Source of the DNA: Altererythrobacter sp. H2
Lineage (GTDB): Bacteria > Pseudomonadota > Alphaproteobacteria > Sphingomonadales > Sphingomonadaceae
NCBI RefSeq assembly: GCF_035319885.1
Contig: NZ_CP141285.1
Location: 2,604,001 to 2,668,000 of the forward strand
Direction of reading: 5' to 3'
Length of the DNA: 64,000 bases
Shown: one piece after another, positions 31,382-55,247 of the stretch
Numbering within the stretch: the first letter of the stretch is position 1
Layout: each line of letters opens with the position of its first letter
Program-made: the position numbers and the translations under genes
Notes under the pieces: generated by a model
The model's input: only the letters and a program-made list of their open reading frames with translations
The model's database searches: none
Told to the model about the DNA's origin: nothing

Positions 31382-32215
31382 ATGAATCAGGATCAGATCA
31401 GGCCGATGTCGCGGCATGTCGGCAGCGAAGTGCATGGACTGCGGCTCGCAAGCGCCAGCGACAGCGACATAGCGGGAATCAAGCATTTGCTGGCTGAACG
31501 CGGTCTGGTCGTTTTCCGCGACCAGGACCTGTCGGAGGAAGACCATATCGCCTTTGCCCGCCGGATCGGGCCGATCGTCGTCAACAACTATTTCCCGGCC
31601 AATGGCGGCCATCCCGAAATCGCTGAAGTCCGCAAGAGCGAGACCCAGCAGGTCAATATCGGCGGTGGCTGGCACACCGATCACAGTTACGACCAGGTGC
31701 CGGCGATGGGTTCCATCCTGGTCGCCCGCGAATTGCCGCCCAGCGGCGGCGATACGCTGTTCGCCAGCATGGCAGCAGCCTACGATTCGCTGTCAGACGC
31801 CTTCAAGGCGACGCTGGAGACCCTGCGGGCCGTCCACACCGCCGACCATATCTACGGCCCGGACGGGTTCCTTTCCAATTCGGATCAGGGTGCGGATCTC
31901 AAAGGACGGGACCTGAAGACCCGCGCGGTCCATCCGCTGGTCATCCGCCATCCGGACACCGGGCAGAAGCTGCTCTACGTGAACTCCGGCTTCACTACCC
32001 ATATCGAAGGCTGGACCCGGGACGAGAGCCTCTCACTGCTCAACTACCTGTTTTCCGTCGGCATGCGCGAGGAATTCCAGTGCCGTCTGCAATGGGCGCC
32101 GGGCACGGTGGCCATGTGGGATAACCGGTCGACCTGGCACTATGCGCTCAACGACTACCACGGCCATCGCCGCCTGATGCACCGGATCACGATTGACGGG
32201 GTACCGATCCACTGA
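31382..32215 (+). CDS. TauD/TfdA family Fe(II)/2-oxoglutarate dioxygenase
   Basis: A 277-aa dioxygenase with a complete facial triad: H98 and D100 in GGWHTDHSY, and H253 in MWDNRSTWHYALNDY; an Arg in HRRLMHR would bind 2-oxoglutarate. RBS GGGAGAGAGGAA. The family hydroxylates an aliphatic carbon next to sulfonates, ethers or carboxylates, often leading to fragment loss. Here it could act on a steroid side chain or other group; none can be chosen from sequence. Its 3' end overlaps the convergent SnoaL-like gene by 29 bases. Confidence 0.9.
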   Translation: MNQDQIRPMSRHVGSEVHGLRLASASDSDIAGIKHLLAERGLVVFRDQDLSEEDHIAFARRIGPIVVNNYFPANGGHPEIAEVRKSETQQVNIGGGWHTDHSYDQVPAMGSILVARELPPSGGDTLFASMAAAYDSLSDAFKATLETLRAVHTADHIYGPDGFLSNSDQGADLKGRDLKTRAVHPLVIRHPDTGQKLLYVNSGFTTHIEGWTRDESLSLLNYLFSVGMREEFQCRLQWAPGTVAMWDNRSTWHYALNDYHGHRRLMHRITIDGVPIH

Positions 32216-32666
32216 TTGCGAGGAGCGTGCGGGCAGCGGCCCTGCCGTCGAGCAGGGCGTTGTCCCGCCGCGCCGCCCGCCAGCCTTCGCTGGTTCGCAC
32301 GAACTGCCAGTTGTTGGCAGCCACGCGCACCGTGTCCCACCCTGCCCCGGTTTTGCGGAAGACGATGCTGTGGCACAGTGCCGTCGCCTGATCGCCCGCC
32401 AGCGTGATAACGGGCGGGCTGAGCACGTGGGCGCAACCGTCGCTCATCAAATCCCGGTGGACTGGTCCCTCGATCAGGGCTGCAATCGCGGCGTGGCCGC
32501 GCGCTTCGGGAAATCCGTCGACCGCATAGACGCCATCGCTGGTCCACAGGGCCGCCACCGCCTGCGCGTCACCGCTGTCTGCCATCGGGCCGTAGGACGC
32601 GATGAGATTACCGATCGCTTCGCGGTCTTCCAGTGCCTGCAGGCGCTCGTGGATGGTATCAGCCAA
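32187..32666 (-). CDS. SnoaL-like / NTF2-fold protein (copy 4)
   Basis: A 159-aa NTF2-fold protein: helix ERLQALEDREAIGNLIASYG, LWTSDGVYAVDGFPEARG, CAHVLSPPVITLAG, and WRAARRDNALLDG at the end. Last gene of the hsa minus-strand operon, its ATG overlapping the FAD protein stop by eight bases. The association with ring A/B genes favours a role in steroid nucleus dehydration or isomerisation, which is inference. Confidence 0.8.
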   Translation of the reverse strand: MADTIHERLQALEDREAIGNLIASYGPMADSGDAQAVAALWTSDGVYAVDGFPEARGHAAIAALIEGPVHRDLMSDGCAHVLSPPVITLAGDQATALCHSIVFRKTGAGWDTVRVAANNWQFVRTSEGWRAARRDNALLDGRAAARTLLAISGSVPRQS

Positions 32667-34119
32667 GCGCGGCCGCGCGCCCGGCCTGCCGTCCGAAGAA
32701 GGTGCAGTCAGCCAGGCTCATGCCGGAAGAATAGCCGTGCCCCCAGGCAGGCAGGCCGCTGGTGCAGCGCCCGGCAGCGTAGAGGCCCGGGATCGGCGTT
32801 CCGCCCCGGCCCAGCACTTCGCCATCGGTCGAGGTATGGAGCCCGCCGAGGGTGAAGAAGCTGAAATAGCTGGACTGGAAATTGAGCTCCAGCGCCACGA
32901 ACGGCCCCTGGTCGAGCGGCATCAGGATCGGCGGGCGCTTGTCGAACAGCGGATCGCGGCCTTCGCGGGCATGGGCGTTGTAGAACGCCATCGTGGTGCT
33001 GAGCGTGCCTTGGGGCATCTCCAGCTCGGTCTCGACCTCTTCCCACGTGTCCCCGGTCCCGGCGATGTCGGTCCGGGCGAAGTCCATCGGCTGGACGAAC
33101 TGCGCGCTGTCCAGCAGTAGGTAGACCTTGCCGCCCGGCTGGTCGACCGCGCAGCGGCTGACCCGCCCGTGGTAGCAATCCTCGTTGATGAACCGCTGGC
33201 CGTGGACATTGACGAACACCCCGTTGGCGTGACTTTCCGGCATGGTCCACGGGCAAGTGGTGAAAAACTGATCCATGTGGATCGCCTCGCCGCCAGCACC
33301 GACCCCCAGCAGGATGCCGCTGCCATCGTCCTTATCGCCGATCGGGTCGTTGAGCTTGAAAGTGTCGGGGCAATGCTTGCGCCGCAGATCATCGTTGAAC
33401 ACGAACCCGCCGGTGGCCAGCACCACGCCTTTGCTGGCGCGGACAAAGCGCGGCTGGTTGTCGATCCGCATGATCACGCCGACGATCCGGCCCTCGTCCT
33501 CGATCAACGCCAGTGCGCGGGCGTCGACGACGATCTCGACGTGTCGATTCCGGGCGCTGGCTTCCAGAATGTCGACCAGTGGCCGCCCCCCGCCCCAGCC
33601 CATGTGCTGGATCACGTGGCCGCGCGGGGCCGGTCTGGCAATGTCGCAGAACGGCGCGGCGGCCTCGCTGCCGGACCAGATCAGGGTAGAATCGTCGGTC
33701 GGCTCGATATGCTTTCCGGGCAGGTAGTTGCCGCGATAGGGCACGCCCTCCGCCTTGAGCCAGGCGTAGTGGTTCAGGGCCTCGCGCCCGTAGAGTTCGC
33801 ACTTGGCAATATCGACGCAAGGGCCGCCCGCCGCCTTGAGATAAGCGGTGAAGTCCTCGGTGCTGTCCTCGAAGCCCGCCGCGCGCTGTGCATCGGTGCC
33901 GCCACCGCCGCCGATGTAGATTTCCCCGCCCGACAGGCCCGAGGCGCCGCCGCTGCCCGAATTGCGCTCGAACAGCATGACCTTTGCGCCCGCATCAGCG
34001 GCTTCGATCGCGGCGCAGGCACCCGTGGCACCGAACCCGATCACCGCAACATCGGTTTCGAAATCCCAGCGCCCGACTTCTGCTGCCGGATAGGGCCGGT
34101 GGAGCGAAATCTCAGCCAT
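32659..34119 (-). CDS. FAD-dependent oxidoreductase, fumarate reductase/KstD superfamily
   Basis: A 486-aa flavoprotein. The dinucleotide motif GFGATG is at residues 28-33, with [16 protein letters not shown] after it, [12 protein letters not shown] as a second FAD contact, and a C-terminal segment [21 protein letters not shown]. The YPGxG motif of classical KstD is absent, so delta1-dehydrogenation in the same way is unlikely; a delta4-type dehydrogenase or C=C reductase is possible. It sits between hsaF and a SnoaL-like gene with 8-base overlaps at both ends. Confidence 0.83.
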
Positions 34120-35152
34120 CGGTACCTTGCGCCTTGAGCATATCGAGCGCGACGTCGACGATCATGTCCTCCTGCCCGCCGACCATCTTGCGACGGCCCA
34201 GTTCGACCAGGATGGCACGGGTATCGAGCCCGTAATCCCCGGCGGCCTTTTCCGCATGGCGCAGGAAGCTGGAATAGACCCCGGCATAGCCGAGCGCGAG
34301 TGTCTCGCGGTCAACCCTTACCGGGCGGTCCTGCAGCGGTCGAACCAGGTCTTCCGCCGCGTCCATCAGTGCCATGACGTCGCAGCCGTGGTTCCAGCCC
34401 TTGCGGTCAGCGGCAGCGATGAACACCTCCAGCGGCGCATTGCCCGCGCCTGCCCCCATCCCGGCGAGCGAGGCGTCGATCCGCACTGCGCCATATTGCG
34501 CCGCGACGATGGAGTTCGCCGTGCCGAGGCTCAGGTTGTGGTGCGCGTGCATTCCGCGCTGGGTTTCAGGCTTGAGCACCCGATCATAGGCTTCGAGCCG
34601 CTCGCGCACCCCGTCCATGTCGAGCGCGCCGCCACTGTCGGTGACATAAACGCAGTGAGCGCCGTAGCTTTCCATCAGCAATGCTTGGCTAGCGAGCGCC
34701 TCGGCGTCGATCATGTGGCTCATCATCAGGAACCCGGAGACGTCCATGCCGAGATCGCGGGCGATGCCGATATGCTGCTTCGAAACGTCCGCTTCGGTGC
34801 AGTGGGTTGCCACCCGGACCGAGCGCACGCCGATGTCATAGGCACGGCGCAGTTCCTCGACCGTGCCTACGCCGGGCAGGATCAGCGTGGTCAGTACGCT
34901 GCGCTCCAGCACATCGGCCACGGCCTCGAGCCATTCCCAGTCGGTGTGTGCGCCGAAGCCGTAGTTGAAGCTCATGCCCGAAAGGCCATCGCCATGGGCG
35001 ACCTCGATTGCATCGACGCCCGCCTTGTCGAGTGCGGCGGCAATCTCGCGCACGCTGTCGATGCCGTACATGTGACGGATCGCGTGCATCCCGTCGCGCA
35101 GGGTCACGTCCTGGATGTAGAGCTTGTCGCCCCGTTCGACATCGAAGCTCAT
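34112..35152 (-). CDS. hsaF: 4-Hydroxy-2-oxohexanoate/oxovalerate aldolase HsaF
   Basis: A 346-aa class II pyruvate aldolase of the BphI/HsaF family: [12 protein letters not shown] near the N-terminus gives the catalytic Arg and metal Asp, and [11 protein letters not shown] the metal His pair; [12 protein letters not shown] is the communication-domain helix. It splits 4-hydroxy-2-oxohexanoate (steroid ring A) into pyruvate and propanal, channelling the aldehyde to HsaG. The gene overlaps hsaG by ATGA, as expected for the tight complex. Confidence 0.95.
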
Positions 35153-36075
35153 GCCGCGATCCTTTCAGCAATCAGTTCGCCGGTGGCCTTGGCCGCCGCG
35201 GTCATGATGTCGAGATTGCCTGAATAGCTGGGCAGGTAGTCGCCCGCGCCCTCGACTTCGAGCAGGATCATGGTCCTGATCCCGGTGAACTCGCCCATGC
35301 CGGGAATGCGCAGCGGATTGTTGTCACCGAAGCGCTCGAACTGGACCTGCTGCTTCAACCGGTAACCGGGGACATAGGCCTGCACCCGTGCCACCATCGC
35401 TTCGACCGAGGCGCGGATTGCCTCCTCGTCTGCCCCTTCGGACAGGGTGAAGACGGTATCGCGCATGATCATCGGCGGTTCGGCCGGGTTGAGAATGATG
35501 ATCGCCTTGCCCCGCGTCGCCCCGCCGACCGCCTCGATGGCGCGGGCGGTTGTGCGAGTGAATTCGTCGATGTTGGCGCGCGTCCCCGGCCCTGCCGAAC
35601 GCGAGGAGACCGAGGCAACGATCTCGGCATAGTGGACCTTCGCCACCTGGCTCACCGCCGCCACCATCGGGATCGTCGCCTGCCCGCCGCAGGTCACCAT
35701 GTTGACGTTGGGCGCGTCGAGGTGCGCGTCCATGTTGACCGTCGGCACCGTGAAGGGCCCGATCGCGGCGGGCGTCAGGTCGACCACCCGGATGCCATCC
35801 GCCTGCAAGGCCGCGTCATGAACCTTGTGGGCATAGGCGCTGGTGGCATCGAAGGCGATGCGGATGTCCTTGTAGCAATCGAGCCGCTTCAGACCCTCGA
35901 TGCCCTCGTGCGTCGTTGCAATCCCGTGCTCGCGCGCCATGGCCAGGCCTTCGCTGGCCGGGTCGATCCCGACCACCGCCGCCAGCTCCATGTTCTGCGG
36001 ATACTTGAGCATCTTGATCATCAGGTCGGTGCCGATATTGCCCGAACCGATAATCGCGGCTTTCACCTTGGTCAT
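35149..36075 (-). CDS. hsaG: Acylating aldehyde dehydrogenase HsaG
   Basis: A 308-aa acylating dehydrogenase of the BphJ/HsaG family. Rossmann motif GSGNIGTDL, the catalytic Cys in [10 protein letters not shown], and [15 protein letters not shown] are present. It oxidises propanal (or acetaldehyde) to the CoA thioester with NAD. ATG 36075 ([10 protein letters not shown]) has AGGA upstream; the longer reading from 36105 would overlap hsaE. Partner of HsaF. Confidence 0.95.
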
Positions 36076-36083
36076 TGCTTTTC

Positions 36084-36869
36084 CTAGACAAAACGCGCGG
36101 TGCAAGTGCCCACGCCATGCAGTTCCATTTCGAACACGTCGCCCGCGACCGCCGGTTCCAGCGGCACCAGCGATCCCGACAGGATCACGTCGCCCGCATC
36201 GAGCGTCACGCCGTACTGGCCGAGCGTGTTGGCGAGCCAGGCGACGGCCTGGGCCGGATCGCCCTGCACCGCCGAGCCGAGCCCTTCGGACAGTGGCTGG
36301 CCGTTCTTGGTCACCGTGACCCGCAGGCCGGGCAGATCATGGCTGCGCGGATCAGCCCGCGCCGCGCCGAGCACGAACACGCCGCAGCTGGCGTTGTCGG
36401 CCACAGTGTCAACAATCCCGATTTTCCAGTCGCGAATGCGGCTGTCGACGATCTCGAAGCACGGTGCGATGGCGGCGGTGGCGGCGATCACCTGTTCCGC
36501 CGTCACGCCTGGCCCGGTCAGGGGCTCGGCGAGGATGAAGGCGATCTCGGCCTCGGCGCGCGGCTGGATGAGGCGGCGTCCGGCGACGTCGATCTCGCCT
36601 TCCGCCAGCATGGCATCGGTGAGGAATCCGAAATCGGGCTGGTGAACGCCGAGCATGTCCTGCACGGCCTTGCTGGTGACGCCGATCTTCTTGCCGACCA
36701 CGCGTTCGCCATCGGCCAGCCGGCGGGCGAGGAAATCGAGGCTGATGGCGTAGGCATCGTCGATCGTCAGCGCAGGATCGCGTTCGATCAGCGGGGCCAG
36801 CGTGTGCCGCTCGCGCAAGGCGCGGTAGAGCTGCTCTCCATGGAGAGCGGCGAAGTCGGTGCGGCTCAC
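36084..36869 (-). CDS. hsaE: 2-Hydroxyhexa-2,4-dienoate hydratase HsaE
   Basis: A 261-aa 2-keto-4-pentenoate hydratase/fumarylacetoacetase-fold enzyme ([41 protein letters not shown]-like [11 protein letters not shown]). It hydrates the dienol released by HsaD to 4-hydroxy-2-oxohexanoate. GTG start at 36869, overlapping the hsaB stop (GTGA). A much longer in-frame reading towards 36986 runs through hsaB and is rejected. Confidence 0.93.
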
Positions 36870-37378
36870 AGGTAGCCTCCATCCTGATAGATCAGCGGAT
36901 CGACCGCGCCGCTGACCCGGGCCCGGATCACGCGGGCAATGACGATGCTGTGGGTGCCGTAGGCGAGCATGGCGTCGATCACGCATTCGAGCTGCGCCTG
37001 CGCATCGGCGAGCGCAGGCAGGCCATTGGCCCCGTCCTGCCAGTCACCGACCTTGAACCGCTCCTCGCGCGGAACCCCGCCGCCGAAGGCCATAGAGACA
37101 TCGCGGTGGTGCCGCGCCAGCAGGTTGACCGACAGCGGCGCGGTGGGCACCAGCAGCGCGTGCAGGCTGGTCATCCGGTTGACGCAGACCAGCACCGCGG
37201 GCGGATCGACCGTGAGCGAAGTGATCGAGGTCGCCGCCATGCCCACCGGGCCTTCATCGCCCTTGGCCACCACGATCGAGACCGAGGCCGCCAGCCGCCG
37301 CATGGCCGACTTGAACACGTCCGGCAGGTCATCCGGGATCAGGGGATAGCCTTCAGCCACGCAGGAAGCCGATGGCAT
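36866..37378 (-). CDS. hsaB: Flavin reductase component HsaB
   Basis: About 170 aa, flavin reductase (HpaC-like) fold: VGMAATSITSLTVDPPAVLVCVN is the FMN-binding strand-loop (core MAATSITSLTVDPP), with PLSVNLLARHH following. It supplies reduced flavin to HsaA. The start is uncertain: ATG 37378 overlaps the hsaD stop by 26 bases; ATG 37426 and GTG 37360 are in frame too. None has a clear Shine-Dalgarno, so coupling to hsaD translation is likely. Assignment to HsaB rests on fold plus the adjacent hsaA, hsaD. Confidence 0.86.
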   Translation of the reverse strand: MPSASCVAEGYPLIPDDLPDVFKSAMRRLAASVSIVVAKGDEGPVGMAATSITSLTVDPPAVLVCVNRMTSLHALLVPTAPLSVNLLARHHRDVSMAFGGGVPREERFKVGDWQDGANGLPALADAQAQLECVIDAMLAYGTHSIVIARVIRARVSGAVDPLIYQDGGYL

Positions 37379-38171
37379 GGGTGTTGAACTCGCCGGCTCG
37401 TTCGACCTGGACCCAGTGGCCGACATGGTTGAACGTCATCGTGCGCACATCGCACCCGGCATTGAGGAAATGGCGCGCGCCGCTTTCCGGGCAGAACTCG
37501 TCCTGCAGGCCCCACATGACCAGCATCGGGTTGGGCAGCTCGCCCAGCCTCGGCGCAAGGTTCGGCGTGCGCATCCGCATCAGCACGTCCTTGGGCTGGG
37601 TCCGGGCGACAGCAAAGCGTTCCTGCACCAATGCGTCAGGGATGTTCGCGGCGAAATCGGGATGGACCAAATTGCTCACCAGCCGGCGCTGTTCGTCGAG
37701 GTTGAAGTCGGGCCCGCCGAAGTTTGATACCATGCGGGCAATGCCGGGCATCGTGAAGTAGTGCGCCTGTTCCTCGATACAGCCAGGTGCCATCAGCACC
37801 AGCCGCTCGGCAAACCCGGGGTGGTCGAGTGCGATCTGGAGCGCGATGCCCCCGCCCAGCGAGTTGCCGACCATGCTGGCGCGTTCGATGCCGTGGGCGA
37901 GAAGGGCCTCATAGACCGTGTCCGCAAACAGCTGCAGGGTATAATCGATGCCTTCCGGCTTGGAGGAGGCACCGTATCCGATCAGGTCTGGCAGCACGAC
38001 GCGGAAACCCGCATCGACAAACACCTGCCAGTTGTCGCGAAAGTTCGACGCACCCGAAGCCCCCGGTCCGCTGCCGTGGAGGAACACCACCACGGGGCCG
38101 GACCCGGCATCCTTCACATGAATCGAATGCCCGCCGGTTACGGTATAGGTCGCTTCGCTCAATCCCCCCAT
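37353..38171 (-). CDS. hsaD: Meta-cleavage product hydrolase HsaD (4,9-DSHA hydrolase)
   Basis: A 272-aa alpha/beta hydrolase. The nucleophile is S104 in GNSLGG, the acid D224 in GLQDEFCP, the base H252 in NHVGHW; oxyanion loop HGSGPGASG. This set is typical of C-C bond hydrolases of the BphD/HsaD family. It cleaves the product of HsaC into 2-hydroxyhexadienoate and the HIP acid carrying rings C/D. Eleven bases after hsaA. Confidence 0.93.
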   Translation of the reverse strand: MGGLSEATYTVTGGHSIHVKDAGSGPVVVFLHGSGPGASGASNFRDNWQVFVDAGFRVVLPDLIGYGASSKPEGIDYTLQLFADTVYEALLAHGIERASMVGNSLGGGIALQIALDHPGFAERLVLMAPGCIEEQAHYFTMPGIARMVSNFGGPDFNLDEQRRLVSNLVHPDFAANIPDALVQERFAVARTQPKDVLMRMRTPNLAPRLGELPNPMLVMWGLQDEFCPESGARHFLNAGCDVRTMTFNHVGHWVQVERAGEFNTHAIGFLRG

Positions 38172-38182: not shown

Positions 38183-39397
38183 TTACAGGAACGGGTTGAG
38201 CGGTTGTTCGCCCAGCATGGTGCCGATCGCGTCACCGGTGCGGTTGTTGGGATCGTTGGCCACATGGGCGCGGCCTGCGTGGAGATCGAGCCAGGGCTGG
38301 ATGATCTCGCTGGTCATGTAGATCGCCCGGCCGCCGAACAGCTGGACCACATCGTCGATCAGCCGCGCCAGCCGCCGCACCACCGTGCTGGACTGGTAGG
38401 TGAAGAAGGCCCGTTTCTCCATCGGAATGGCCTCGCCCCGTTCGGCATAACCCATCAGCTCGTCAAAGGTCAGCCGCAGCGTGACCTCCATTTCCCGCTT
38501 TTCGGAAATCGCCCGCGCCAGCGCCGCATGCAGGATCGGATCCTGCTTCGAGGCCTTGCCGGTATTGGTCGACACCCGGTCCTGCATGATCGCCAGGCCG
38601 GCATTGATGGCAGCCTGAGCCCCGCCGAACGCGGCGGTCGAGACCGAGCGGGTAAAGACCTGCGCCCACGGCAGCCGGTAAAGCGGCCCGGTGTTCACTT
38701 CCTGCCCCGGGTTCTGGCACAGGAAGCCGTCAATCGAGCGGTGGGTGCGATATTCGGGGATGAACGCATCATCAACGATGATGTCATGGCTGCCGGTCCC
38801 TTGCAGGCCGAAAGTGTGCCACGCGTCTTCATCGATTTCATAATCGCTGCGCGGCAGCAGGAAGGTGCGCATTTCCGCTGGGGTGCCGTCATCCTTCGGC
38901 GGGCAGAACGCGCCCAGCAGGATCCAGCCGGAGTGGACCGAGCCGGTCGAGAAACCCCAGCGGCCCGACAGACGGAAGCCGCCTTCCACATGGGTCACCT
39001 TGCCGACCGGCTGGTAGGTCGAACAGACCAGCATGTCCGGGTCCTCGCCCCACACCTCTTCCTGCGCCTGTTCATGGAACAGCGCCATCTCATAGGGGTG
39101 GCAGCCCAGCACACCGTACATCCATCCGGTCGACATGCAGCCTTCGGCCAGCACCTTCTGCACTTCGAAGAAGTCATTCGGATGCATTTCGTAGCCGCCG
39201 AACTTTTCCGGCTGGAGGATGCGGAAGAAACCGGCCGCCTTCATGTCGGCAATGGTTTCTGCAGGCACATTCCGGGCGCGGGTACACGCCTTGGCGCGGG
39301 CCTTGAGCGACGGCACCATGTCGCGGGCCCGTTGCAGCAGTTCCTCCGCTGTCGGCTTCGCACTTCCGATATCAACCCGCTTCACGGCAACACCCAT
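38183..39397 (-). CDS. hsaA: 3-HSA 4-monooxygenase oxygenase component HsaA
   Basis: A 404-aa flavin-dependent monooxygenase with the acyl-CoA dehydrogenase fold (Mtb HsaA has a similar length). Recognisable regions are ARDMVPSLKARA, EVQKVLAEGCMSTGW, SGRWGFSTGS, GLQGTGSHD and LFGGRAIYM. It ortho-hydroxylates the phenol 3-HSA to the catechol 3,4-DHSA using flavin reduced by HsaB. ATG 39397 (MGVAVKRVDIG) has GAGGAG upstream; the reading extending to 39499 crosses the operator and is rejected. First gene of the hsa operon. Confidence 0.94.
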   Translation of the reverse strand: MGVAVKRVDIGSAKPTAEELLQRARDMVPSLKARAKACTRARNVPAETIADMKAAGFFRILQPEKFGGYEMHPNDFFEVQKVLAEGCMSTGWMYGVLGCHPYEMALFHEQAQEEVWGEDPDMLVCSTYQPVGKVTHVEGGFRLSGRWGFSTGSVHSGWILLGAFCPPKDDGTPAEMRTFLLPRSDYEIDEDAWHTFGLQGTGSHDIIVDDAFIPEYRTHRSIDGFLCQNPGQEVNTGPLYRLPWAQVFTRSVSTAAFGGAQAAINAGLAIMQDRVSTNTGKASKQDPILHAALARAISEKREMEVTLRLTFDELMGYAERGEAIPMEKRAFFTYQSSTVVRRLARLIDDVVQLFGGRAIYMTSEIIQPWLDLHAGRAHVANDPNNRTGDAIGTMLGEQPLNPFL

Positions 39398-39460
39398 GTT
39401 CCGGCTCCTCACCACGCAGTTACTGGTCGAACCATATCGACTCAGCGGCAAAACCCATGC

Positions 39461-39490: not shown

Positions 39491-39580
39491 AATCGTCAAT
39501 TGAAAAGCCCTTTACCTTCCGATAATGCAGTTTTGATAGCGGTGCTGTGCCGCGATTCAGGAATTAAGCCGGGAAGAGGG

Positions 39581-45712: not shown

Positions 45713-45714
45713 TC

Positions 45715-46878: not shown

Positions 46879-47810
46879 TGGATATGCTGATTGCTCCCGA
46901 ACGGCTCGAACTCGCCGAAGCCGTGCGCGATTTCCTGTCCGGCACCCATGGCCCCGAGGTTCTCCGGCGGCTCGACGCTGGTCCGAACCGCGATCCCGCC
47001 ATCTGGCAGGGACTGGTCGAGATGGGCCTTACCGGTCTGCTGGTGCCCCAAGACCATGGCGGGCTGGGTATGGGCCTGCTCGATGCCGCCCTGATAGCGC
47101 GCGAATGCGGCCGGGTGGCGCTCGCGGAGCCGCTGGTGGAGAGCGCCTTCGTCGCGGTGCCGTGGCTCGTCGCGAATGGCCGAACGGAGGATCTGGCGGC
47201 GATTGCCGCAGGTGGGCGGAAGGTCGCACCCGCGCACCAATTGAACGGCTGGGTTGCGGATGGGGAAGGTGCGGCGCTCGACAGCATCGACCCGCTGCGC
47301 AACCTGACGGCCCTGCCCGCCACCGCCAGTAACGATCCGCTGCTGCTCGACCTCGGCGCGCTGATGGCCGCCGCGCAGCTGGTCGGGCTGGCCGAGGCCA
47401 TGCTCGACCAGGCGGTCGAATACTCGAAGATCCGCACCCAGTTCGGCCAGCCGGTCGGCGGCTTCCAGGCAATCAAGCACAAGCTGGCCGATGTTGCGGT
47501 GGCGCTCGAATTCGCCCGCCCCGTTCTGTGGCGCGCGGCGCAGGCGCTGGATGACGCCATTGAAAGCGCCAGCCTGCACGTCAGCCATGCCAAGGTCGCC
47601 GCGACCGACGCGGCCTATCTCTCCGCCGAGAGCGCAATCCAGGTGCACGGGGCGATGGGCTACACCTACGAAGTCGATCTGCATTTCTGGATGAAGCGAG
47701 GCTGGGCGCTCAGCGGCGCATGGGGCAGCCACGCCTATCACCTGCGTCACATCGACGCCGCAATCATCGGCGGCACGCACCCAATTGGCCCGGAGAACAC
47801 CTTTGCCTGA
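46878..47810 (+). CDS. Acyl-CoA dehydrogenase, small subunit of pair 1
   Basis: A 310-aa protein, short for the family because the middle beta domain is reduced. The C-terminal helical domain is intact (LDQAVEYSKIRTQFGQPVGGFQ in parts; VHGAMGYTYEVDLHFWMKR). Forms a pair with the preceding gene, with a one-base TGATG overlap. Such short subunits are inactive alone and complete an alpha2beta2 enzyme in steroid pathways. Confidence 0.88.
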   Translation: MDMLIAPERLELAEAVRDFLSGTHGPEVLRRLDAGPNRDPAIWQGLVEMGLTGLLVPQDHGGLGMGLLDAALIARECGRVALAEPLVESAFVAVPWLVANGRTEDLAAIAAGGRKVAPAHQLNGWVADGEGAALDSIDPLRNLTALPATASNDPLLLDLGALMAAAQLVGLAEAMLDQAVEYSKIRTQFGQPVGGFQAIKHKLADVAVALEFARPVLWRAAQALDDAIESASLHVSHAKVAATDAAYLSAESAIQVHGAMGYTYEVDLHFWMKRGWALSGAWGSHAYHLRHIDAAIIGGTHPIGPENTFA

Positions 47811-48954
47811 AGCCTATATCATTGACGCCGTGCGCAGCCCGATGGGCCGCAAGAAGGGCTCACTTGCCGCGCTCCATCCGGCTGACCTTGCCGCGCATCC
47901 GATCCGCGAACTGTTCGCCCGCAATGACATCGATCCGGCCCTGGTCGACGACTGCGTCTGGGGATGCTGTGACACCATTGGCCCGCAGGCGGGCGATATT
48001 GGCCGCACCGCATGGCTGGTGGCGGGCCTGCCGCAGCACGTGCCCGGCACCACGGTTGACCGCCAGTGCGGATCGAGCCAGCAGGCCGTCCATTTCGCGG
48101 CCCAAGGCGTGATGAGCGGCACGCAGGACCTGGTCGTCGCGGGCGGCAGCCAGGCGATGAACGCCATTCCCATTTCCGCCGCGATGTTCGCCGGGCAGCC
48201 TTATGGCTTCGACAACCCGTTCAATACCTCGCCCGGTTGGGTCGCGCGCTATGGCGACGGCTTGCTGAACCAGATCGCATCGGCACAGATGATCGCCGAC
48301 AAGTGGGGCGTGAGCCGTGAGGACATGGAAATGTTCGCGGTCGCCTCCCACGCCCGGGCACAGGCCGCGACCGACAGCGGCGCCTTCGCCCGCGAGATCG
48401 CCCCGCTCGAAGGGCTGGCGCAGGACGAAACCATCCGCCCCGGCACTACGATGGAAGGGCTCGCCGCCCTGAACCCGGTCGGCGGCGAAGGCACCATCAC
48501 CGCCGGGGTCGCCAGCCAGAACTGCGACGGCTCTGCCGCGCTGCTGTTTGCCGGGGAGCAGGCGGTCAAGGACCACGGCCTGACCCCGCGTGCGCGCATT
48601 CACCACCTCACTGTCCGCGCCGACGACCCGGTGTGGATGCTGACCGCGCCGATCCCCGCCACCCGCCATGCGCTGGCCAAGGCCGGGATGACCGTGGACG
48701 ATATCGACCTGTTCGAATGCAACGAGGCCTTCGCATCCGTGCCGCTGGCATGGATGAAGGAGCTCGGCATCCCGCATGACAAGGTGAACGTGCGCGGCGG
48801 GGCAATTGCGCTCGGCCACCCGCTTGGCGGCACCGGCGCGCGGCTGATGACCACCCTGCTCCATGCGCTGGAGGACACCGGCGGCCGCTATGGCCTGCAG
48901 ACCATGTGCGAAGGCGGCGGACAGGCCAACGTGACGATTATCGAGAGGCTTTGA
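47803..48954 (+). CDS. fadA6: Thiolase FadA6-like
   Basis: A 383-aa thiolase. The nucleophile is C89 (DRQCGSSQ), His in NEAFAS/ALGHPLGGTGAR, and the second Cys in MCEGGGQAN. TTG 47803 has GGAG seven bases upstream and overlaps the previous stop by eight bases; another TTG (47785) is in frame. In actinobacteria FadA6 cleaves a ring C/D-derived beta-ketoacyl-CoA after IpdAB, which suits this place. Confidence 0.9.
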   Translation: MPEAYIIDAVRSPMGRKKGSLAALHPADLAAHPIRELFARNDIDPALVDDCVWGCCDTIGPQAGDIGRTAWLVAGLPQHVPGTTVDRQCGSSQQAVHFAAQGVMSGTQDLVVAGGSQAMNAIPISAAMFAGQPYGFDNPFNTSPGWVARYGDGLLNQIASAQMIADKWGVSREDMEMFAVASHARAQAATDSGAFAREIAPLEGLAQDETIRPGTTMEGLAALNPVGGEGTITAGVASQNCDGSAALLFAGEQAVKDHGLTPRARIHHLTVRADDPVWMLTAPIPATRHALAKAGMTVDDIDLFECNEAFASVPLAWMKELGIPHDKVNVRGGAIALGHPLGGTGARLMTTLLHALEDTGGRYGLQTMCEGGGQANVTIIERL

Positions 48955-48956
48955 CT

Positions 48957-49862
48957 ATGGGTATCTGCGAAGGACGGACCGTCATCGTGACCGGGGCGGC
49001 ACGCGGGCTGGGCCGCGCCTATGCGCTGGCCTTTGCCGCCGAAGGCGCGCAAGTGGTGGTCAACGACATCGGCACTTCGCTCGGCGGAGAAGGGCGCGAC
49101 ACCAGCGCGGCGGACGGCGTGGTCGAGGAAATCCGCGCCGCTGGCGGGCAGGCTGTCGCGAACTACGACGATGTCACCGACTGGGTTGCTGCCGGGCGGA
49201 TCGTCGAGGCTGCGATCAGCGCATTTGGCGACCTGCACGTGGTGGTCAACAACGCCGGGATCGTGCGCGACCGGATGTTCGTTTCCGCCACGCTGGAGGA
49301 ATGGGACGCGACCATGCACGTCCACCTGCGCGGGCATTTCTGCATCAGCCGCCACGCGGTCAACTACTGGCGCGCCAAGCAGAAGGACGGGCGCGATCCC
49401 GATGCGCGGATCATCAACACCACCAGCGGCGCAGGGCTGCAGGGCTCGATCGCGCAGGCGGCCTATTCCACGGCCAAGGGCGGCATCGCTTCGCTCACCC
49501 TGGTGCAGGCGGCAGAACTGGGCCGCTACGGCATTACCGCCAACGCGCTTGCCCCCTCGGCCCGCACCCGCATGACCGAGCAGGCCTTTGCCGACAAGAT
49601 GGCGACCGAAAGCCAGGCGTTCGACGTGATGGACCCGGCCAATATCGCGCCGACGGTGGTGTGGCTCGGCAGCAGCGAGAGCCGCGAGGTGACCGGCTGC
49701 GTGTTCGAACTCGAAGGCGGCAAGATCATGCTGGAAGACGGCTGGCGCGAGGGACCATTCGTCGATCTCGGCGCGCAGTGGGAGCCGGGCAAGGTCGGCG
49801 AAGCAGTAGGGGCACTGCTGGAACAGCGGGTGCCGCCACGCAAGGTCTGGGGGACGGCATAA
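48957..49862 (+). CDS. SDR family oxidoreductase (MFE/17beta-HSD4-type)
   Basis: A 301-aa SDR, long for the family: TGAARGLGRAY, NNAGIVRDRMF, NTTSGAGLQG then YSTAK, and a C-terminal tail ending in KVWGTA. The form resembles the dehydrogenase domain of multifunctional beta-oxidation enzymes, so a 3-hydroxyacyl-CoA substrate is likely, here a ring C/D CoA ester. It lies between the thiolase and the second FadE pair. Confidence 0.88.
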   Translation: MGICEGRTVIVTGAARGLGRAYALAFAAEGAQVVVNDIGTSLGGEGRDTSAADGVVEEIRAAGGQAVANYDDVTDWVAAGRIVEAAISAFGDLHVVVNNAGIVRDRMFVSATLEEWDATMHVHLRGHFCISRHAVNYWRAKQKDGRDPDARIINTTSGAGLQGSIAQAAYSTAKGGIASLTLVQAAELGRYGITANALAPSARTRMTEQAFADKMATESQAFDVMDPANIAPTVVWLGSSESREVTGCVFELEGGKIMLEDGWREGPFVDLGAQWEPGKVGEAVGALLEQRVPPRKVWGTA

Positions 49863-50920
49863 TGGATTTCGCCTTCACTGACGAACAGGTGATGATCGCC
49901 GAAACCGCCAGGGCCTTCTTCACCGAGAATGCCACCAGCGAGCGGACCCGCGCGGCCATGGCCGCGGACGGGATCGATCAGGCGCTGTGGCAGGCCTTCT
50001 GTCAGGAGCTTGGTCTGTCCGGGATCGGTATTCCCGAAGCCGCAGGCGGCGCCGGTCTCGGGCTGGTCGAGCTTGCCATCATCGCGGAGGCAGCAGGCGC
50101 GCAGGTCGCGGCTCTGCCGCTGCTGGGATCGTTGGCGCTGTGTGCGCAGGCGATTGCGGCCGGCGGAAGTGCCGGACAGCAGGAACAGTACCTGCCCGGC
50201 CTGCTCTCTGGCGAAGTGATCGCGGGCTATGTCCATGACGCGGCGCTCAAGGCAGATGGCGATGCGCTCACGGGCGAGGCAGGTTTCGTCGCCCATGGCG
50301 GCTCCGCCGGGCTCATGGTCGTGACCAGCAACACCGGGGCATGGCTGGTTGCGGCGGACGCGCCGGGCGTGACCGTCACGCCGCTCACCACCATGGACCA
50401 GACCCGTCCCTTTGCCCGTGTCACACTTGATGGTGCACAAGGCGAACCTCTGGCTGATCCGGCCGCGGCCATCGCCGCGGCTCATCGTGCCGGATTCGTG
50501 ACTGTCGCCGCCGAGGGGCTTGGCGTGGCCCAGGCCGCGCTTGACCGCACGGTCGCCTATGCCCGCGAGCGGGTCCAGTTCGGCCGCCCGATCGGCTCGT
50601 TCCAGGCCTACAAGCACCGCCTGGCAGACATGGTGGTGGAGATCGAGCAGGCCCGCAGCGCGGTCTACTGGGCCGCTTGTGCGGTCGACGAGGGATCGGA
50701 CGAAGCAGGCCTCGCCGTTCACGCCGCCAAGTCCTTCGCCGCCGACACCGCGTTCAAGTGCGCAGGCGACATGATCCAGCTCCACGGCGGGATCGGCTTC
50801 ACCTGGGAGCACGACGCGCACCTCTATTTCAAGCGCGCGCGGGCGCTCCAGTCCATTCTCGGTTCGGGCAACTGGCACCGCGAACAGGTTGCCGCGATGA
50901 TCCTTGGAGAAGCAGCATGA
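49862..50920 (+). CDS. Acyl-CoA dehydrogenase, small subunit of pair 2
   Basis: A 352-aa ACAD-fold subunit with a degenerate middle domain and an intact C-terminal domain (TVAYARERVQFGRPIGSFQ in parts; LHGGIGFTWEHDAH). It shares one base with the upstream SDR stop (TAATG) and four with the next gene (ATGA). Likely the partner of the following large subunit. Order is small-large here but large-small in pair 1, so the pairs are not a simple tandem duplication. Confidence 0.88.
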   Translation: MDFAFTDEQVMIAETARAFFTENATSERTRAAMAADGIDQALWQAFCQELGLSGIGIPEAAGGAGLGLVELAIIAEAAGAQVAALPLLGSLALCAQAIAAGGSAGQQEQYLPGLLSGEVIAGYVHDAALKADGDALTGEAGFVAHGGSAGLMVVTSNTGAWLVAADAPGVTVTPLTTMDQTRPFARVTLDGAQGEPLADPAAAIAAAHRAGFVTVAAEGLGVAQAALDRTVAYARERVQFGRPIGSFQAYKHRLADMVVEIEQARSAVYWAACAVDEGSDEAGLAVHAAKSFAADTAFKCAGDMIQLHGGIGFTWEHDAHLYFKRARALQSILGSGNWHREQVAAMILGEAA

Positions 50921-52095
50921 GGCTCGGGTTCAGTCAGGCGGAAGAGGATTTCCGCGCCGAATGTGCCGACTGGCTCAATGCCCAGATGGCCGGTGAATTC
51001 GCCGACATCAAAGGCATCACCACGCTCACCGAAAAGGCCGAGCGGCGCAAGGAGTGGGAGCAGCACCTCGGCGCCAATGGCTGGGGCTGCATCGGCTGGC
51101 CGAAGGAATGGGGCGGGCGCGATGCGACGCTGGCCGAGCAGGTCATCTTCGCCGAGGAATATGCCCGCGCCGGGGTTCCGGGCCGGGTGAACCACATCGG
51201 CATCGAACTGGCCGGGCCGACCCTGCTGGCGCTCGGCACGGAAGAACAGAAGCGCCGCTTCCTGCCGGACATTGCGGCGGGCAAGACGATCTTCTGCCAG
51301 GGCTTTTCCGAACCGGGCGCCGGATCGGACCTCGCCAGCGTGCGCACCAAGGCGCGGCTGGAGGGCGATGAATGGGTGGTCGAAGGCCAGAAGATCTGGA
51401 CCAGCCTCGCCCATATCTCCGACTGGATCTTCGTCGTCGCGCGCAGCGAGGAAGGCTCGAAAGGCCCCAAGGGTCTGACCTTCCTGATGATGGAACTGGG
51501 CCAGCCCGGCATCGAAATCCGCCCGATCCGCCAGATCAACGGCGATGCCGAATTCAACGAGACGTTCTTCGACGGCGCGCGTTGCCCGGCCGACAGCCTG
51601 ATCGGCGCGGTGGGCGATGGCTGGCGGGTGGCGATGACGTTGCTCAGCTTCGAGCGGGGGGTTTCCACCCTCGGCCAGCAGATGGCGTTCCGCAACGAGC
51701 TGGACGGGATCATCGCGGCGGCAAAAGCCAACGGCACCGCCAATGACCCGCTGGTCCGCCAGCGCATCGCCAGGGCAGAAATCGGCTTGCAACTGATGCG
51801 CTACGGTGCGCTGCGGATGCTGTCGAACACCGATCACAGCAAGGTCGACGGCGCGGCCCTGACCTACAAGATCCAGTGGGCGACCTGGCGCCGCAACCTG
51901 GGTGAGCTGGCGATGGACGTGCTGGGGCAGGCGGCGGAAGTCACCGACAATCCCGAATACGAATGGGACATGCTGCCCAACCTGTTCCTCTATTCCCGCG
52001 CCGACACGATCTATGGCGGGACCAACCAGATCCAGCGCAACCTGATTGCGGAAAGAGGGCTTGGAATGCCCCGCGAACCGCGAGGTGACGCATGA
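50917..52095 (+). CDS. Acyl-CoA dehydrogenase, large subunit of pair 2
   Basis: A 392-aa ACAD: GFSEPGAGSDLAS, GLTFLMMEL, GEGWxVAM-type GDGWRVAMT, and C-terminal TIYGGTNQIQRNL. The MCAD catalytic Glu position is Gly. Forms a heteromer with the preceding subunit, by gene pairing. A substrate along HIP-CoA beta-oxidation is inferred. Confidence 0.9.
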   Translation: MRLGFSQAEEDFRAECADWLNAQMAGEFADIKGITTLTEKAERRKEWEQHLGANGWGCIGWPKEWGGRDATLAEQVIFAEEYARAGVPGRVNHIGIELAGPTLLALGTEEQKRRFLPDIAAGKTIFCQGFSEPGAGSDLASVRTKARLEGDEWVVEGQKIWTSLAHISDWIFVVARSEEGSKGPKGLTFLMMELGQPGIEIRPIRQINGDAEFNETFFDGARCPADSLIGAVGDGWRVAMTLLSFERGVSTLGQQMAFRNELDGIIAAAKANGTANDPLVRQRIARAEIGLQLMRYGALRMLSNTDHSKVDGAALTYKIQWATWRRNLGELAMDVLGQAAEVTDNPEYEWDMLPNLFLYSRADTIYGGTNQIQRNLIAERGLGMPREPRGDA

Positions 52096-52874
52096 GCCTC
52101 AATCCAGTCTACCCCCCGCCCCGCAATCTGCTGGCCGGCAAGACAGTGGTGGTCACCGCCGCCGCTGGCACCGGCATCGGCTTTGCCGTGGCCAAGCGTG
52201 CCGCCGAGGAAGGTGCGCAGGTGCTGATCTCCGACTTCCACGAGCGCCGTCTTGGCGAAGCGGCAGACCGGATCGCGGCCGAAGTCGGGTGCGAGCGGCC
52301 TGCCACCTGCCTGTGCGATGTCACCCAGCAAGACCAGGTCGATGCCCTGCGCGATGCTGCGCTGGCCAGCCTTGGCCATGTCGATGTCCTGATCAACAAC
52401 GCCGGGCTCGGCGGGGAAGTGCCGGTCACCGATATGACCGACGAGCAATGGCACCGCGTGCTCGATGTCACGCTCACCAGCGTGTTCCGCATGACCCGCG
52501 CTTTCCTGCCGCACATGCAGCAGCGGCAGACCGGCGCCATCGTCAACAACGCCTCGGTGCTAGGCTGGCGGGCGCAGAAGGGGCAGGCGCACTATGCCGC
52601 CGCCAAGGCCGGGGTCATGGCCTTCACCCGCTGTTCGGCGGTGGAGGCGGCCGAATTCGGGGTGCGGATCAATGCGGTCGCGCCGAGTATCGCGATGCAT
52701 GCCTTCCTCGCCAAGGTCACGACAGACGACCTGCTGGCCGAGCTGTCCGCGCGCGAAGCCTTCGGCCGCCCGGCCGAGGTGTGGGAAGTGGCCAATGCCA
52801 TGATCTTCCTCGCCAGCGACCTCGCCAGCTACATGACCGGGGAAGTGCTCTCGGTTTCCAGCCAGAGGGCCTGA
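52092..52874 (+). CDS. ipdF: SDR IpdF-like
   Basis: A 260-aa SDR with an unusual nucleotide motif TAAAGTGIG, NNAGLG, NASVLGWRA then YAAAK, and a C-terminus VLSVSSQRA that I recall as characteristic of IpdF (Rv3559c, 262 aa). IpdF oxidises/reduces the C5 oxygen of HIP-CoA-derived intermediates. Its place directly after the FadE pair and near fadD3 fits. ATGA overlap upstream. Confidence 0.82.
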   Translation: MSLNPVYPPPRNLLAGKTVVVTAAAGTGIGFAVAKRAAEEGAQVLISDFHERRLGEAADRIAAEVGCERPATCLCDVTQQDQVDALRDAALASLGHVDVLINNAGLGGEVPVTDMTDEQWHRVLDVTLTSVFRMTRAFLPHMQQRQTGAIVNNASVLGWRAQKGQAHYAAAKAGVMAFTRCSAVEAAEFGVRINAVAPSIAMHAFLAKVTTDDLLAELSAREAFGRPAEVWEVANAMIFLASDLASYMTGEVLSVSSQRA

Positions 52875-52876
52875 GC

Positions 52877-53338
52877 ATGACCAGGGTTTTCGACACACCG
52901 CACGATCTGATCGGCAGCGAGAGCACTGTGCTCGGCCCGTCCGACTGGCTGGTGATTGCGCAGGACCGGGTCGACGGTTTCGCCGAAGTGACCGAGGACC
53001 GGCAGTGGATCCATGTCGATGCCGAACGCGCCAAGGACGGCCCGTTCGGCGGGACCATCGCCCACGGCTATCTGACCATGAGCCTGGTCAACCACTTCCT
53101 GCCGCAGCTGATCGAAGTCCGCGGGTTCAGCCATGCGGTCAACGTGGGGGCAGACCGGCTCCGCTTCCTCAACCCGGTCCGGGTGGGTGCGCGCATTCGC
53201 GGCACCGGAGAGATCGTATCGGTCGAGACAATCAAGGGCGCGATCCAGTCGGTCGTCCGGGTGACAGTGGAGATCGACGGCGAGCACAAGCCCGCCTGCG
53301 TGGTCGACACCATCAGCCGCTATTACCCGGATGCATGA
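52877..53338 (+). CDS. MaoC-like hotdog-fold (R)-enoyl-CoA hydratase
   Basis: A 153-aa hotdog-fold protein. The hydratase motif has D-x4-H: DGPFGGTIAHGYLTM. ATG 52877 follows the ipdF stop by two bases. A third hydratase of the operon, possibly for a stereospecific hydration of an enoyl-CoA from ring C/D. The longer reading from 52046 in this frame is a shadow of ipdF. Confidence 0.88.
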   Translation: MTRVFDTPHDLIGSESTVLGPSDWLVIAQDRVDGFAEVTEDRQWIHVDAERAKDGPFGGTIAHGYLTMSLVNHFLPQLIEVRGFSHAVNVGADRLRFLNPVRVGARIRGTGEIVSVETIKGAIQSVVRVTVEIDGEHKPACVVDTISRYYPDA

Positions 53339-53340
53339 CC

Positions 53341-53715
53341 ATGGCGACAGCGGACCAGATGGTGGCGGCGGTGCAGGCCTATATCAACAGCTACAACGCC
53401 GGCGATCTGAACGGCATCGTGAACGTGTTCGCCGCCGATGCCACGGTCGAGGATCCGGTCGGCACCCCGGTAAAGCGGGGGCATGACGAACTGCGCGCGT
53501 TCTTCCACGTCGGTGTGGAGGCCGGGGCCAGACTGTTCCTGGACGGGCCGGTCCGCTGCGCTGACTGCTTCGCCGCTTTCCCGTTCCATGTCGAACTGAC
53601 CTGGGACGGCGCGGTGACCCGGATCGACGTGATCGACGTGTTCCAATTCGACGGTGGCGGCAAAGTCACGGCGATGAAAGCCTATTTCGGCCCCGGCAAC
53701 ATGGGGCCTGCATGA
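53341..53715 (+). CDS. ksi: Steroid delta5-isomerase (ketosteroid isomerase)
   Basis: A 124-aa NTF2-fold protein that aligns with Comamonas ketosteroid isomerase without gaps up to the active site. The catalytic Asp38 (VEDPVG) and the oxyanion-hole pair Tyr14 (QAY) and Asp99 (IDVFQF) are all present with the same numbering. It moves the double bond of a 3-oxo-delta5 steroid to delta4, an early step, yet the gene is near the end of the ring C/D operon. Overlaps fadD3 by ATGA. Confidence 0.93.
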   Translation: MATADQMVAAVQAYINSYNAGDLNGIVNVFAADATVEDPVGTPVKRGHDELRAFFHVGVEAGARLFLDGPVRCADCFAAFPFHVELTWDGAVTRIDVIDVFQFDGGGKVTAMKAYFGPGNMGPA

Positions 53716-55247
53716 GCGCCCTGCCCCCCACCATTCCCCACGCGGCCGAGGCCGCCGCGCGCCGCTGGCCAGACCGCCTGGCGCTGGTCGAGGGTGAGGA
53801 CCGGCGCACGTTCGCCGAGCTATGGCAGGAATGCCGCACGGCAGCCTCCGCCCTGCTGGAACGCGGTGTCACCACCGGTGACCGGATCGCGATCTGGGCA
53901 CCCAACCGGCGCGAATGGGTGGTGGCTGCGGTCGCTGCACAAACTTGCGGGGCGGCTATCGTTCCGCTCAACACCCGGCTCAAGGGCCGCGAGGCGGGCG
54001 ACATCCTGCGCCGCACCCGCGCGCGCATCCTGTTCACGGTCAGCGGCTTCCTCGACATCGACTACCCAGCCCTGCTGGCCGGCGAGGACTTGCCGTATCT
54101 TGGCGAGACGGTCCTGCTTGACCGGGACTGGGGCGCATTCCTGGCCAGCGGCACCGGCCCCGACGATACGCGCATCGATGCGCAGCTTGCCACGCTCACC
54201 CCCGATCACCTGTCCGACGTGATGTTCACCAGCGGCACCACCGGCGTGCCCAAGGGCGTGCTGATGACCCACGGGCGCATCCTGCCGCAGGTGGGCGTGT
54301 GGATCGGCAACACCGGCCTCGGCGAGGGCGAACGCTACCTGATTGCCAACCCGTTCTTCCACAGCTTCGGCATGAAGGTCGGCTGGGTCGCCTGCCTGCT
54401 CGCTGGCGCGGTGATGGTTCCCATGCCGCAGTTCGACGTGGCCGAGGCTGCGCGCCTGATCGCACAGGAACGGATCGCCTTCCTGCCCGGCCCGCCGACC
54501 ATCTTCCAGATGTTGCTGGCCGAACGCGAGCGTGCGCCGTTCGACTGTTCATCGCTGCGGGGCGGCACCACCGGAGCGGCAACCGTGCCCCCCGTGCTGA
54601 TCGAACGCATCCGCAACGAGCTTGGCATGAGTGACATCATCACTGCCTACGGGATGACCGAATGCGTCAACATCACTTCTTGCCGGCCCGGCGATCCCGT
54701 CGAACTGATAGCCGGCACCTGCGGCGCTGCCATTCCGGGTAACGAAGTGATCATCGCCGACGAGGCCGGCAGCGAGCTGCCACGCGGAGAAACCGGTGAG
54801 ATCCTGGTCCGCGGCATCGGCGTGATGCAGGGTTACCTCGACGACCCGGAAGCCACCGCCGAGGCAATCGACGCCGAGGGCTGGCTCCACACCGGCGACG
54901 TCGGAACGATGGACCAGGCCGGTTACCTCCGCATCACTGACCGCATGAAGGACATGTTCATCTCCGGCGGATTCAACGTCTACCCCGCCGAGGTCGAAAA
55001 GCTCCTCTCGGCCCACCCGGCGGTCGGCATGGTTGCGGTCATCGGGGTTCCGGATGAGCGCATGGGGGAAGTCGGCAAGGCTTTCGTGGTCAGACGGCCT
55101 GGTGGAACTGTTGAAGCGGCCGAGCTGCTCGCCTGGGCTCGCGCCAACATGGCCAACTACAAGGTGCCGCGACACTTGGTCTTTCTGAGTGAACTTCCCA
55201 GAAATGCCGCCGGCAAGGTCACCAAGATTGATCTGAAGGGCAACTGA
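53712..55247 (+). CDS. fadD3: HIP-CoA ligase FadD3-like
   Basis: A 511-aa acyl-CoA ligase, the length of Mtb FadD3. It has FTSGTTGVPKGVLMTHG, ITAYGMTEC, GWLHTGDVGTMD, DRMKDMFISGGFNVYP and the catalytic Lys in RNAAGKVTKID. FadD3 activates HIP, the rings C/D acid left after HsaD, with CoA. Last gene of the plus-strand operon, and the gateway to the enzymes encoded upstream. Orthology is inferred from length and operon context. Confidence 0.9.
   Translation: MSALPPTIPHAAEAAARRWPDRLALVEGEDRRTFAELWQECRTAASALLERGVTTGDRIAIWAPNRREWVVAAVAAQTCGAAIVPLNTRLKGREAGDILRRTRARILFTVSGFLDIDYPALLAGEDLPYLGETVLLDRDWGAFLASGTGPDDTRIDAQLATLTPDHLSDVMFTSGTTGVPKGVLMTHGRILPQVGVWIGNTGLGEGERYLIANPFFHSFGMKVGWVACLLAGAVMVPMPQFDVAEAARLIAQERIAFLPGPPTIFQMLLAERERAPFDCSSLRGGTTGAATVPPVLIERIRNELGMSDIITAYGMTECVNITSCRPGDPVELIAGTCGAAIPGNEVIIADEAGSELPRGETGEILVRGIGVMQGYLDDPEATAEAIDAEGWLHTGDVGTMDQAGYLRITDRMKDMFISGGFNVYPAEVEKLLSAHPAVGMVAVIGVPDERMGEVGKAFVVRRPGGTVEAAELLAWARANMANYKVPRHLVFLSELPRNAAGKVTKIDLKGN

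Follow-up and report, generated by a model that had tools for sequence, protein, structure and literature searches.

Among the closest described relatives of the locus reported here is the proteobacterial 9,10-seco steroid (SD) cluster of Caenibius (Novosphingobium) tardaugens NBRC 16725, which spans 26.4 kb in two divergent regions, with tesD on the shorter, fadD3 (EGO55_13795) ending the longer (EGO55_13695-13795), and kstD and kshA about 30 and 50 kb from the cluster (PMC6895838). Its authors state that no regulator lies near the cluster and give no operator. The BCD-ring cluster of Comamonas testosteroni TA441 extends from tesB to tesR and includes scdL1L2, N, K, Y, M1M2, F, E, C1C2, G and D; the meta-cleavage dioxygenase gene tesB is thus clustered with ring C/D genes, while the A/B-ring genes form a separate cluster (PMC13101464), and the regulator, TesR, is of the LuxR type (PMC6895838, PMC12239570). 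Here we analyse a 64,000-nucleotide stretch of Altererythrobacter sp. H2 (the window; bases 2,604,001-2,668,000 of a 3.24-Mb genome, single contig; coordinates below are window positions), which carries a sphingomonad SD cluster at 32187-55247, and describe a 32-bp inverted repeat in its promoters together with a pair of Lrp/AsnC regulators, Lrp1 and Lrp2, encoded beside kshA. The data suggest that the steroid genes form one regulon under this pair, which would bind the repeat and probably keep the genes repressed without steroid, a reading to which we assign a probability of roughly two in three.

As in C. tardaugens, the cluster is divergent: eight minus-strand and 17 plus-strand genes run outwards from a 192-bp gap (39398-39589), which is a single divergent promoter and contains one strong inverted repeat. 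A previous reading of this DNA, made from the sequence only, had assigned hsaA, B, D, E, F and G to one strand and hsaC with the ring C/D genes to the other, around a single divergent promoter with one repeat, and both statements held. Its description of the pathway as nearly complete applies to the window as a whole, not to 32187-55247, since a KshA-like 3-ketosteroid 9-alpha-hydroxylase oxygenase (6637-7719, minus strand; PF19298, E 2.6e-58) and a KstD-like 3-ketosteroid dehydrogenase (21904-23598, plus strand; 511 bits, below the curated cut-off of 789) lie outside that interval. The separation of hsaC from the other hsa genes and its linkage to ipdAB and the ring C/D genes are real, but represent a known arrangement. 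When the window HsaC was used as a query in a named genome collection, 32 loci were obtained, some on short contigs; sdr1 and hsaC were adjacent in 28, hsaC and ipdA in 27, and hsaA and sdr1 divergent in 21, so that linkage of hsaC to ring C/D genes is the usual state. The further proposal that catechol opening is tied to HIP degradation rather than to the other hsa genes is weakened, because hsaA and the sdr1-hsaC operon share the same 192-bp start region and one operator, and both arms therefore look co-controlled. Gene content and order are an ordinary, already published arrangement, and a new pathway organisation was ruled out by the C. tardaugens and C. testosteroni clusters. The new part is regulatory: neither the control element nor the candidate regulator was found in the open-access literature searched, and the sequence-only reading mentioned neither the repeat as a regulon-wide element nor a likely regulator in the same window.

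The repeat between hsaA and sdr1 matches TKCGTA-N18-TACGMA at 39461-39490; its putative operator form, idealised to 32 bp, is TTGCGTAA-N16-TTACGCAA (39460-39491). In an alignment of 22 hsaA/sdr1 intergenic regions (the window and 21 loci picked by synteny), the block TTCGTAA...ATACGCAAATCGTCAATTGAAAAGC was almost invariant, while HsaC identity ranged from 51 to 83%. Together with its right flank (to 39506), the repeat forms an ultra-conserved 20-mer, TACGCAAATCGTCAATTGAA (39485-39504). With up to two mismatches allowed, 23 of 397 family genomes contain it (22 as exact matches) and none contains the reversed control; the primary copy is located between hsaA and sdr1 in all 23. A 20-mer-like pattern was present in 29 of the 32 HsaC loci and absent from L029 and L040, while L034 starts inside sdr1. 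At seven loci (L025, L026, L028, L030, L035, L037 and L151) the element lies upstream of sdr1 with no HsaA match in the fetched stretch, so the divergent partner of sdr1 differs there. Two additional copies were seen: genome G295 carries a second 20-mer with two mismatches (L065 2022-10165) between TonB-receptor-like and PhyH-like genes, with an integrase-like gene not far away (as judged from protein starts), and the long hsaA/sdr1 gap of Sphingopyxis witflariensis (L016, ~8906-9200) contains the element twice, the second time in a weaker form.

A 47-row alignment (A1) was picked by pattern, and its invariance is partly built in; rows L062 and L063, which had wrong offsets in a second alignment (A2), were left out of a third (A3). 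The 47-row sequence-only model gave one match in the H2 genome at E<=10 and, in 22 other genomes, the main site in each together with weak matches (E 0.001-1) that fell mainly on the left part. In seven genomes weak matches shared a contig with the main site, no more than ~60 kb away, and some matched both strands; comparison of these weak matches revealed the inverted repeat TKCGTA-N18-TACGMA. Judged from protein starts, the genes adjoining the model-match sites include ones encoding KshA-like oxygenases, TonB receptors, SDRs and Lrp/AsnC regulators.

Further copies of the repeat occur in the window at other steroid promoters. One (7819-7850) lies ahead of the kshA start and overlaps the final 8 bp at the 3' end of lrp1, and another lies upstream of an SDR-KstD-SDR operon on the plus strand and of an SDR gene on the minus strand (20989-21020). 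Weaker sites were found between an OYE-like gene (minus) and an SDR gene (plus) (5756-5787, score 16.2) and at 19426-19457 (score 15.9), probably upstream of an SDR-CoA ligase-CoA ligase-amidohydrolase-KshA-like-amidase operon. The half-site scores at 5756, 7819, 19426, 20989 and 39460 all exceed the highest of 20 Markov controls, and all five sites have one gap, although 5756, 7819 and 39460 had already been seen before the score was set. When seven stretches of named plasmids were scored along with the window, 15 sites reached >=15.5 at the common gap and two did so at the six other gaps tried. A strict search of the whole 3.24-Mb genome with TKCGTAN{14,22}TACGMA returned three distinct sites (hsaA/sdr1, kshA and the kstD operon), all with gap 18 and all in the window, against two for the reversed control; the informative part of this search is that no further site occurs in 3.24 Mb. 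A 35-position model (R2) listed, in the H2 genome at E<=10, only 39461, a training member, and 20989 (E 0.78); run on the window with no filters it also reported 7818 at 7.3 bits (E 0.66) and did not return 5756. The operator was not among the repeats listed by a general repeat finder run on the window. These recurrences suggest that the steroid island is one regulon, with the same repeat at the hsaA/sdr1, kshA and kstD-operon promoters and weaker versions at others, and the role of the repeat as a steroid-regulon operator is well supported.

Upstream of kshA, two sites lie exactly 63 bp apart both in the window (7756-7850) and in a relative (L117, 1403-1497). The second window site, 7756, scores 14.6, below the Markov maximum, and the L117 pair scores 15.7 and 17.9. 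Such pairs would suit an Lrp oligomer spanning more than one site.

The candidate regulator was reached through an Lrp-like protein beside the kshA site of a relative (L103), whose best match in the H2 genome, at 66%, is Lrp1 (7843-8346, minus strand; PF13404 53.3 bits, cut-off 27; PF01037 47.6 bits, cut-off 25). Its gene overlaps by 4 bp that of a second regulator, Lrp2 (8343-8822, minus strand; PF13404 45.4 bits, cut-off 27; PF01037 43.9 bits, cut-off 25), which is 28% identical to Lrp1, and kshA is the next gene downstream. Both proteins thus have an AsnC-type helix-turn-helix and an Lrp/AsnC ligand-binding (RAM) domain above the Pfam cut-offs, and solved Lrp and AsnC structures were matched (best 2cyy, E 5.1e-15). 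The only regulators found among the scanned open reading frames (ORFs) of the window, which did not include every small ORF, were Lrp1, Lrp2 and an AraC/FeaR-like protein; none of LuxR type was seen among them. In the open-access literature, as far as the consulted portions of the articles go, no role of Lrp/AsnC proteins in steroid catabolism was found, the sole relevant mention being a contiguous Lrp/AsnC pair, NCHOL11_RS15865/15860, in a cluster of Sphingobium sp. Chol11, ascribed to amino acid metabolism (PMC12882949).

Across the 397 family genomes, the repeat co-occurs with Lrp1. Relatives of Lrp1 at E<=1e-45 are present in 32 genomes, and the palindrome occurs in 30 of these as opposed to 19 of the 365 without one. 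Restricted to genomes lacking the 20-mer, whose sites had not been seen beforehand, the proportions are 9 of 10 where Lrp1 is present and 18 of 364 where it is absent (Fisher 1.3e-10, an optimistic value given the shared ancestry of the genomes). By hand count, the 32 Lrp1 genomes hold 73 sites against 4 for the reversed control, and the other 365 hold 23 against 49. The ten genomes with Lrp1 and without the 20-mer contain 15 sites, 13 of which are intergenic by rough ORF calls and nine of which adjoin homologues of hsaA, hsaC, fadD3, sdr1, kshA/lrp1, a CoA ligase or the SDR gene preceding kstD. In all 21 loci L115-L135 lrp2 adjoins lrp1, and in 14 of them the order is lrp2-lrp1-repeat-kshA. 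Taken together, these associations lend moderate support to the repeat being bound by Lrp. Four solo lrp1-like copies (L137-L140), one per genome and all in one genus, have the repeat upstream, and one in-frame TGA was flagged in each match. Autoregulation of lrp1 in the window was considered and rejected, the 7819 site being downstream of lrp1 and upstream of kshA.

Lrp/AsnC pairs and the repeat also occur together on named plasmids. Those of Sphingobium herbicidovorans MH and Novosphingobium sp. P6W encode Lrp/AsnC pairs 46-49% identical to Lrp1, located 1.2 kb and 4.0 kb, respectively, downstream of the hsa operon, and in both the repeat, with unchanged spacing, follows a TTGACA box in the hsaC/hsaA gap. 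In the 131 kb (of 487 kb) covered of plasmid pNL2 of Novosphingobium aromaticivorans, the repeat occupies the hsaA/sdr1 gap and three further intergenic positions, and a 50-kb stretch of the plasmid away from these genes contains none; the species is listed among steroid degraders by a source which also says that growth on steroids has not been assessed for it (PMC12239570). Among the steroid-type genes of pNL2 there are also at least three contiguous Lrp/AsnC gene pairs (L145 2906-3830; L147 19447-20489 and 26816-27855).

The arrangement at the divergent promoter suggests how such a pair might act. In the window the 20-mer reads as the half site TACGCAAA, a minus-strand -35-like TTGACG for hsaA and a plus-strand -35-like TTGAAA for sdr1, and a protein bound to the repeat would thereby mask promoter elements of the two arms simultaneously. 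In the mechanism we propose, both arms would start from this one divergent promoter with its single 32-bp inverted repeat; the Lrp1/Lrp2 pair would bind the repeat over the promoter elements and hold down both arms when steroid is absent, and a steroid-derived ligand would cause the pair to release or rearrange. We infer physical binding, joint action of both Lrp proteins, repression as opposed to activation, and the ligand; the sign of regulation and the ligand are the weakly supported parts of the mechanism.

Repression lifted by a steroid-derived ligand is favoured, and a serious rival is that the Lrp pair on the repeat is a steroid-dependent activator, which we consider somewhat unlikely. 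Lrp/AsnC proteins are able to activate as well as repress. In line with activation, C. tardaugens kshA and kstD rose 7.8-fold and 3.5-fold on testosterone (PMC6895838). The position of the sites points the other way: in S. herbicidovorans the repeat follows directly behind TTGACA and encloses TATATA, a likely -10 element (the -10 of hsaA in the window is not clear), and at kshA-type sites TTGACA lies inside the repeat, and since the sites thus sit on promoter elements, repression suits them better than activation.

Several observations weigh against a regulon controlled by Lrp and repressed without steroid. Expression of the C. tardaugens cluster is high at the basal level and only slightly induced (PMC6895838), to which tight repression is poorly suited. 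The strict pattern was written after the three window sites had been seen. A sixth strong window site (27698, score 17.1) has a gap of 17, one base longer than that of the other five; strong sites also occur at gaps 13 and 15 in P6W and, once, at gap 17 in S. herbicidovorans, and the gap may therefore not be strictly fixed. In four genomes no site scoring >=15.3 lies near the main lrp pair (L125, L127, L130 and L135), two genomes with Lrp1 (G254 and G252) have no exact palindrome, and two of the 15 sites of the Lrp1 genomes lie inside rough ORF calls. The co-occurrence itself could reflect steroid degraders having both the repeat and the Lrp pair.

A different possibility is that the repeat is a true steroid operator of another regulator, encoded within or outside the island, and that the Lrp pair only travels with steroid genes. 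Genome G295 carries the 20-mer with an Lrp of only 33%. Genomes that lack both the 20-mer and Lrp1 contain 20 sites, of which the 16 with listed places were fetched; seven of these adjoin hsaA, hsaC or fadD3 (six genomes lacking Lrp1 at E<=1e-45), and eight lie inside rough ORF calls, including two of the seven. The occurrence of the repeat beside hsa and fadD3 genes without a close Lrp1 supports its role as an operator and leaves a gap in the Lrp assignment, to which the diverged pairs near the hsa operon on the two plasmids suggest an answer. Other candidates fared poorly: the AraC/FeaR-like protein (57840-58916) is matched in only one of 22 element-bearing genomes, and the operator proposed for EdcR, TnnCnnTACnAnTnGTAnnGnnA, differs in geometry from GCGTA-N18-TACGC when compared by eye (PMC8700777). 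With the repeat also situated between lrp1 and kshA in two thirds of the lrp-pair loci (14/21) and upstream of the four solo lrp1 copies, we regard a separate regulator as unlikely, and more so than activation by the Lrp pair. That the conserved block is nothing other than overlapping sigma-70-type promoters with no specific regulator bound accords with the -35-like boxes in both directions of the 20-mer and is nevertheless very improbable, as the same-gap repeat recurs at promoters of kshA, the kstD operon, TonB receptors and other genes, and outnumbers the reversed control only in genomes with Lrp1.

The assignment of the locus as a sphingomonad SD cluster rests on its gene content: hsaA, B, D, E, F and G are present, as are tesB/hsaC alongside ipdAB, echA20, ipdC, FadE pairs, a thiolase and fadD3, with kshA and kstD (the latter under its cut-off) nearby in the window. 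On the minus strand, reading away from the divergent promoter, lie the oxygenase component HsaA (38183-39397, start at 39397), the hydrolase HsaD (37353-38171), the flavin reductase HsaB (36866-37426, the longest ORF, with an uncertain start), the hydratase HsaE (36084-36869, profile match), the acylating aldehyde dehydrogenase HsaG (35149-36075) and the aldolase HsaF (34112-35152), the last two passing their NCBIfam cut-offs, followed by an FAD-binding dehydrogenase (32659-34119, profile match) and a SnoaL-like protein (32187-32666, profile match below cut-off).

The plus arm (39590-55247) comprises 17 closely spaced genes, headed by sdr1 (39590-40363, an SDR gene with a likely TTG start) and ending in fadD3. 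The extradiol dioxygenase HsaC (TesB; 40363-41283) has the solved relative 2zi8 (E 3.6e-63) and a profile score of 247 bits against an NCBIfam curated cut-off of 450; IpdA (41283-42167) has the solved relative 6co6 (E 1.1e-82), and IpdB (42167-42955) was assigned by position and conserved gene order. Profile matches identify an EchA20-like member of the enoyl-CoA hydratase family (42952-43854), an IpdC-like FMN protein (43857-44957), an enoyl-CoA hydratase (44957-45712), a FadE pair (45715-46878 and 46878-47810), a FadA6-like thiolase (47785-48954), an SDR (48957-49862), a second FadE pair (49862-50920 and 50917-52095), another SDR (52092-52874), a MaoC-like dehydratase (52877-53338) and a SnoaL/KSI-like protein (53341-53715); FadD3 (53712-55247) passes its curated cut-off (675.8 bits, cut-off 657). 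The matches to HsaA, HsaB, HsaC, HsaD and IpdE2 all score under the NCBIfam curated cut-offs, so these names rest on homology and context, and the three plus-strand SDRs are candidates for ipdF. From gene spacing, each arm is presumably co-transcribed. Normal growth of mutants on steroids, which the sequence-only reading took as refuting a steroid role, would be a risky criterion, because C. tardaugens fadD3 and tesD knockouts grew normally on testosterone, which its authors explain by gene redundancy (PMC6895838).

Elsewhere in the window, two stretches (11699-19457 and 24404-32215) hold further likely steroid genes, including a second KshA-like oxygenase, two CoA ligases, an amidase and an amidohydrolase, together with a P450, a DUF1254 protein, a TauD-like dioxygenase and several SDRs and SnoaL-like proteins. 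Directly past fadD3, the minus strand (55388-60677) encodes a TonB receptor, the AraC/FeaR-like regulator and a D-lactate dehydrogenase.

An Lrp pair acting through this repeat would fill a gap in how sphingomonads switch on steroid breakdown, and a defined operator with a defined candidate regulator makes the question of steroid regulation testable. The two would also make it possible to recognise the steroid regulon of other sphingomonads from their DNA sequence, and could be used as a sensor component for steroid hormones and bile salts. More tentatively, and with appreciably less confidence than in the regulon itself, we suggest that aerobic steroid catabolism in sphingomonads is controlled by a dedicated hetero-oligomeric Lrp/AsnC pair that recognises the fixed-gap 32-bp repeat and whose ligand is a steroid catabolite, perhaps HIP-CoA or an androstanedione; the pair would thus represent a steroid-responsive Lrp branch and the missing pathway regulator of the Sphingomonadaceae.

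Lrp1 and Lrp2 share the helix-turn-helix and ligand-binding domains of the Lrp/AsnC family, which includes E. coli Lrp and AsnC among others, and differ from its known regulators in being encoded as an overlapping pair beside steroid genes and in their association with a 32-bp inverted repeat in steroid promoters. KstR and KstR2 of mycobacteria are regulators of steroid catabolic genes. They and EdcR of C. tardaugens, a TetR protein, resemble the proposed system in that steroid genes are controlled through promoter operators; the proteins themselves belong to another family, as Lrp1 and Lrp2 match AsnC-type domains, not TetR.

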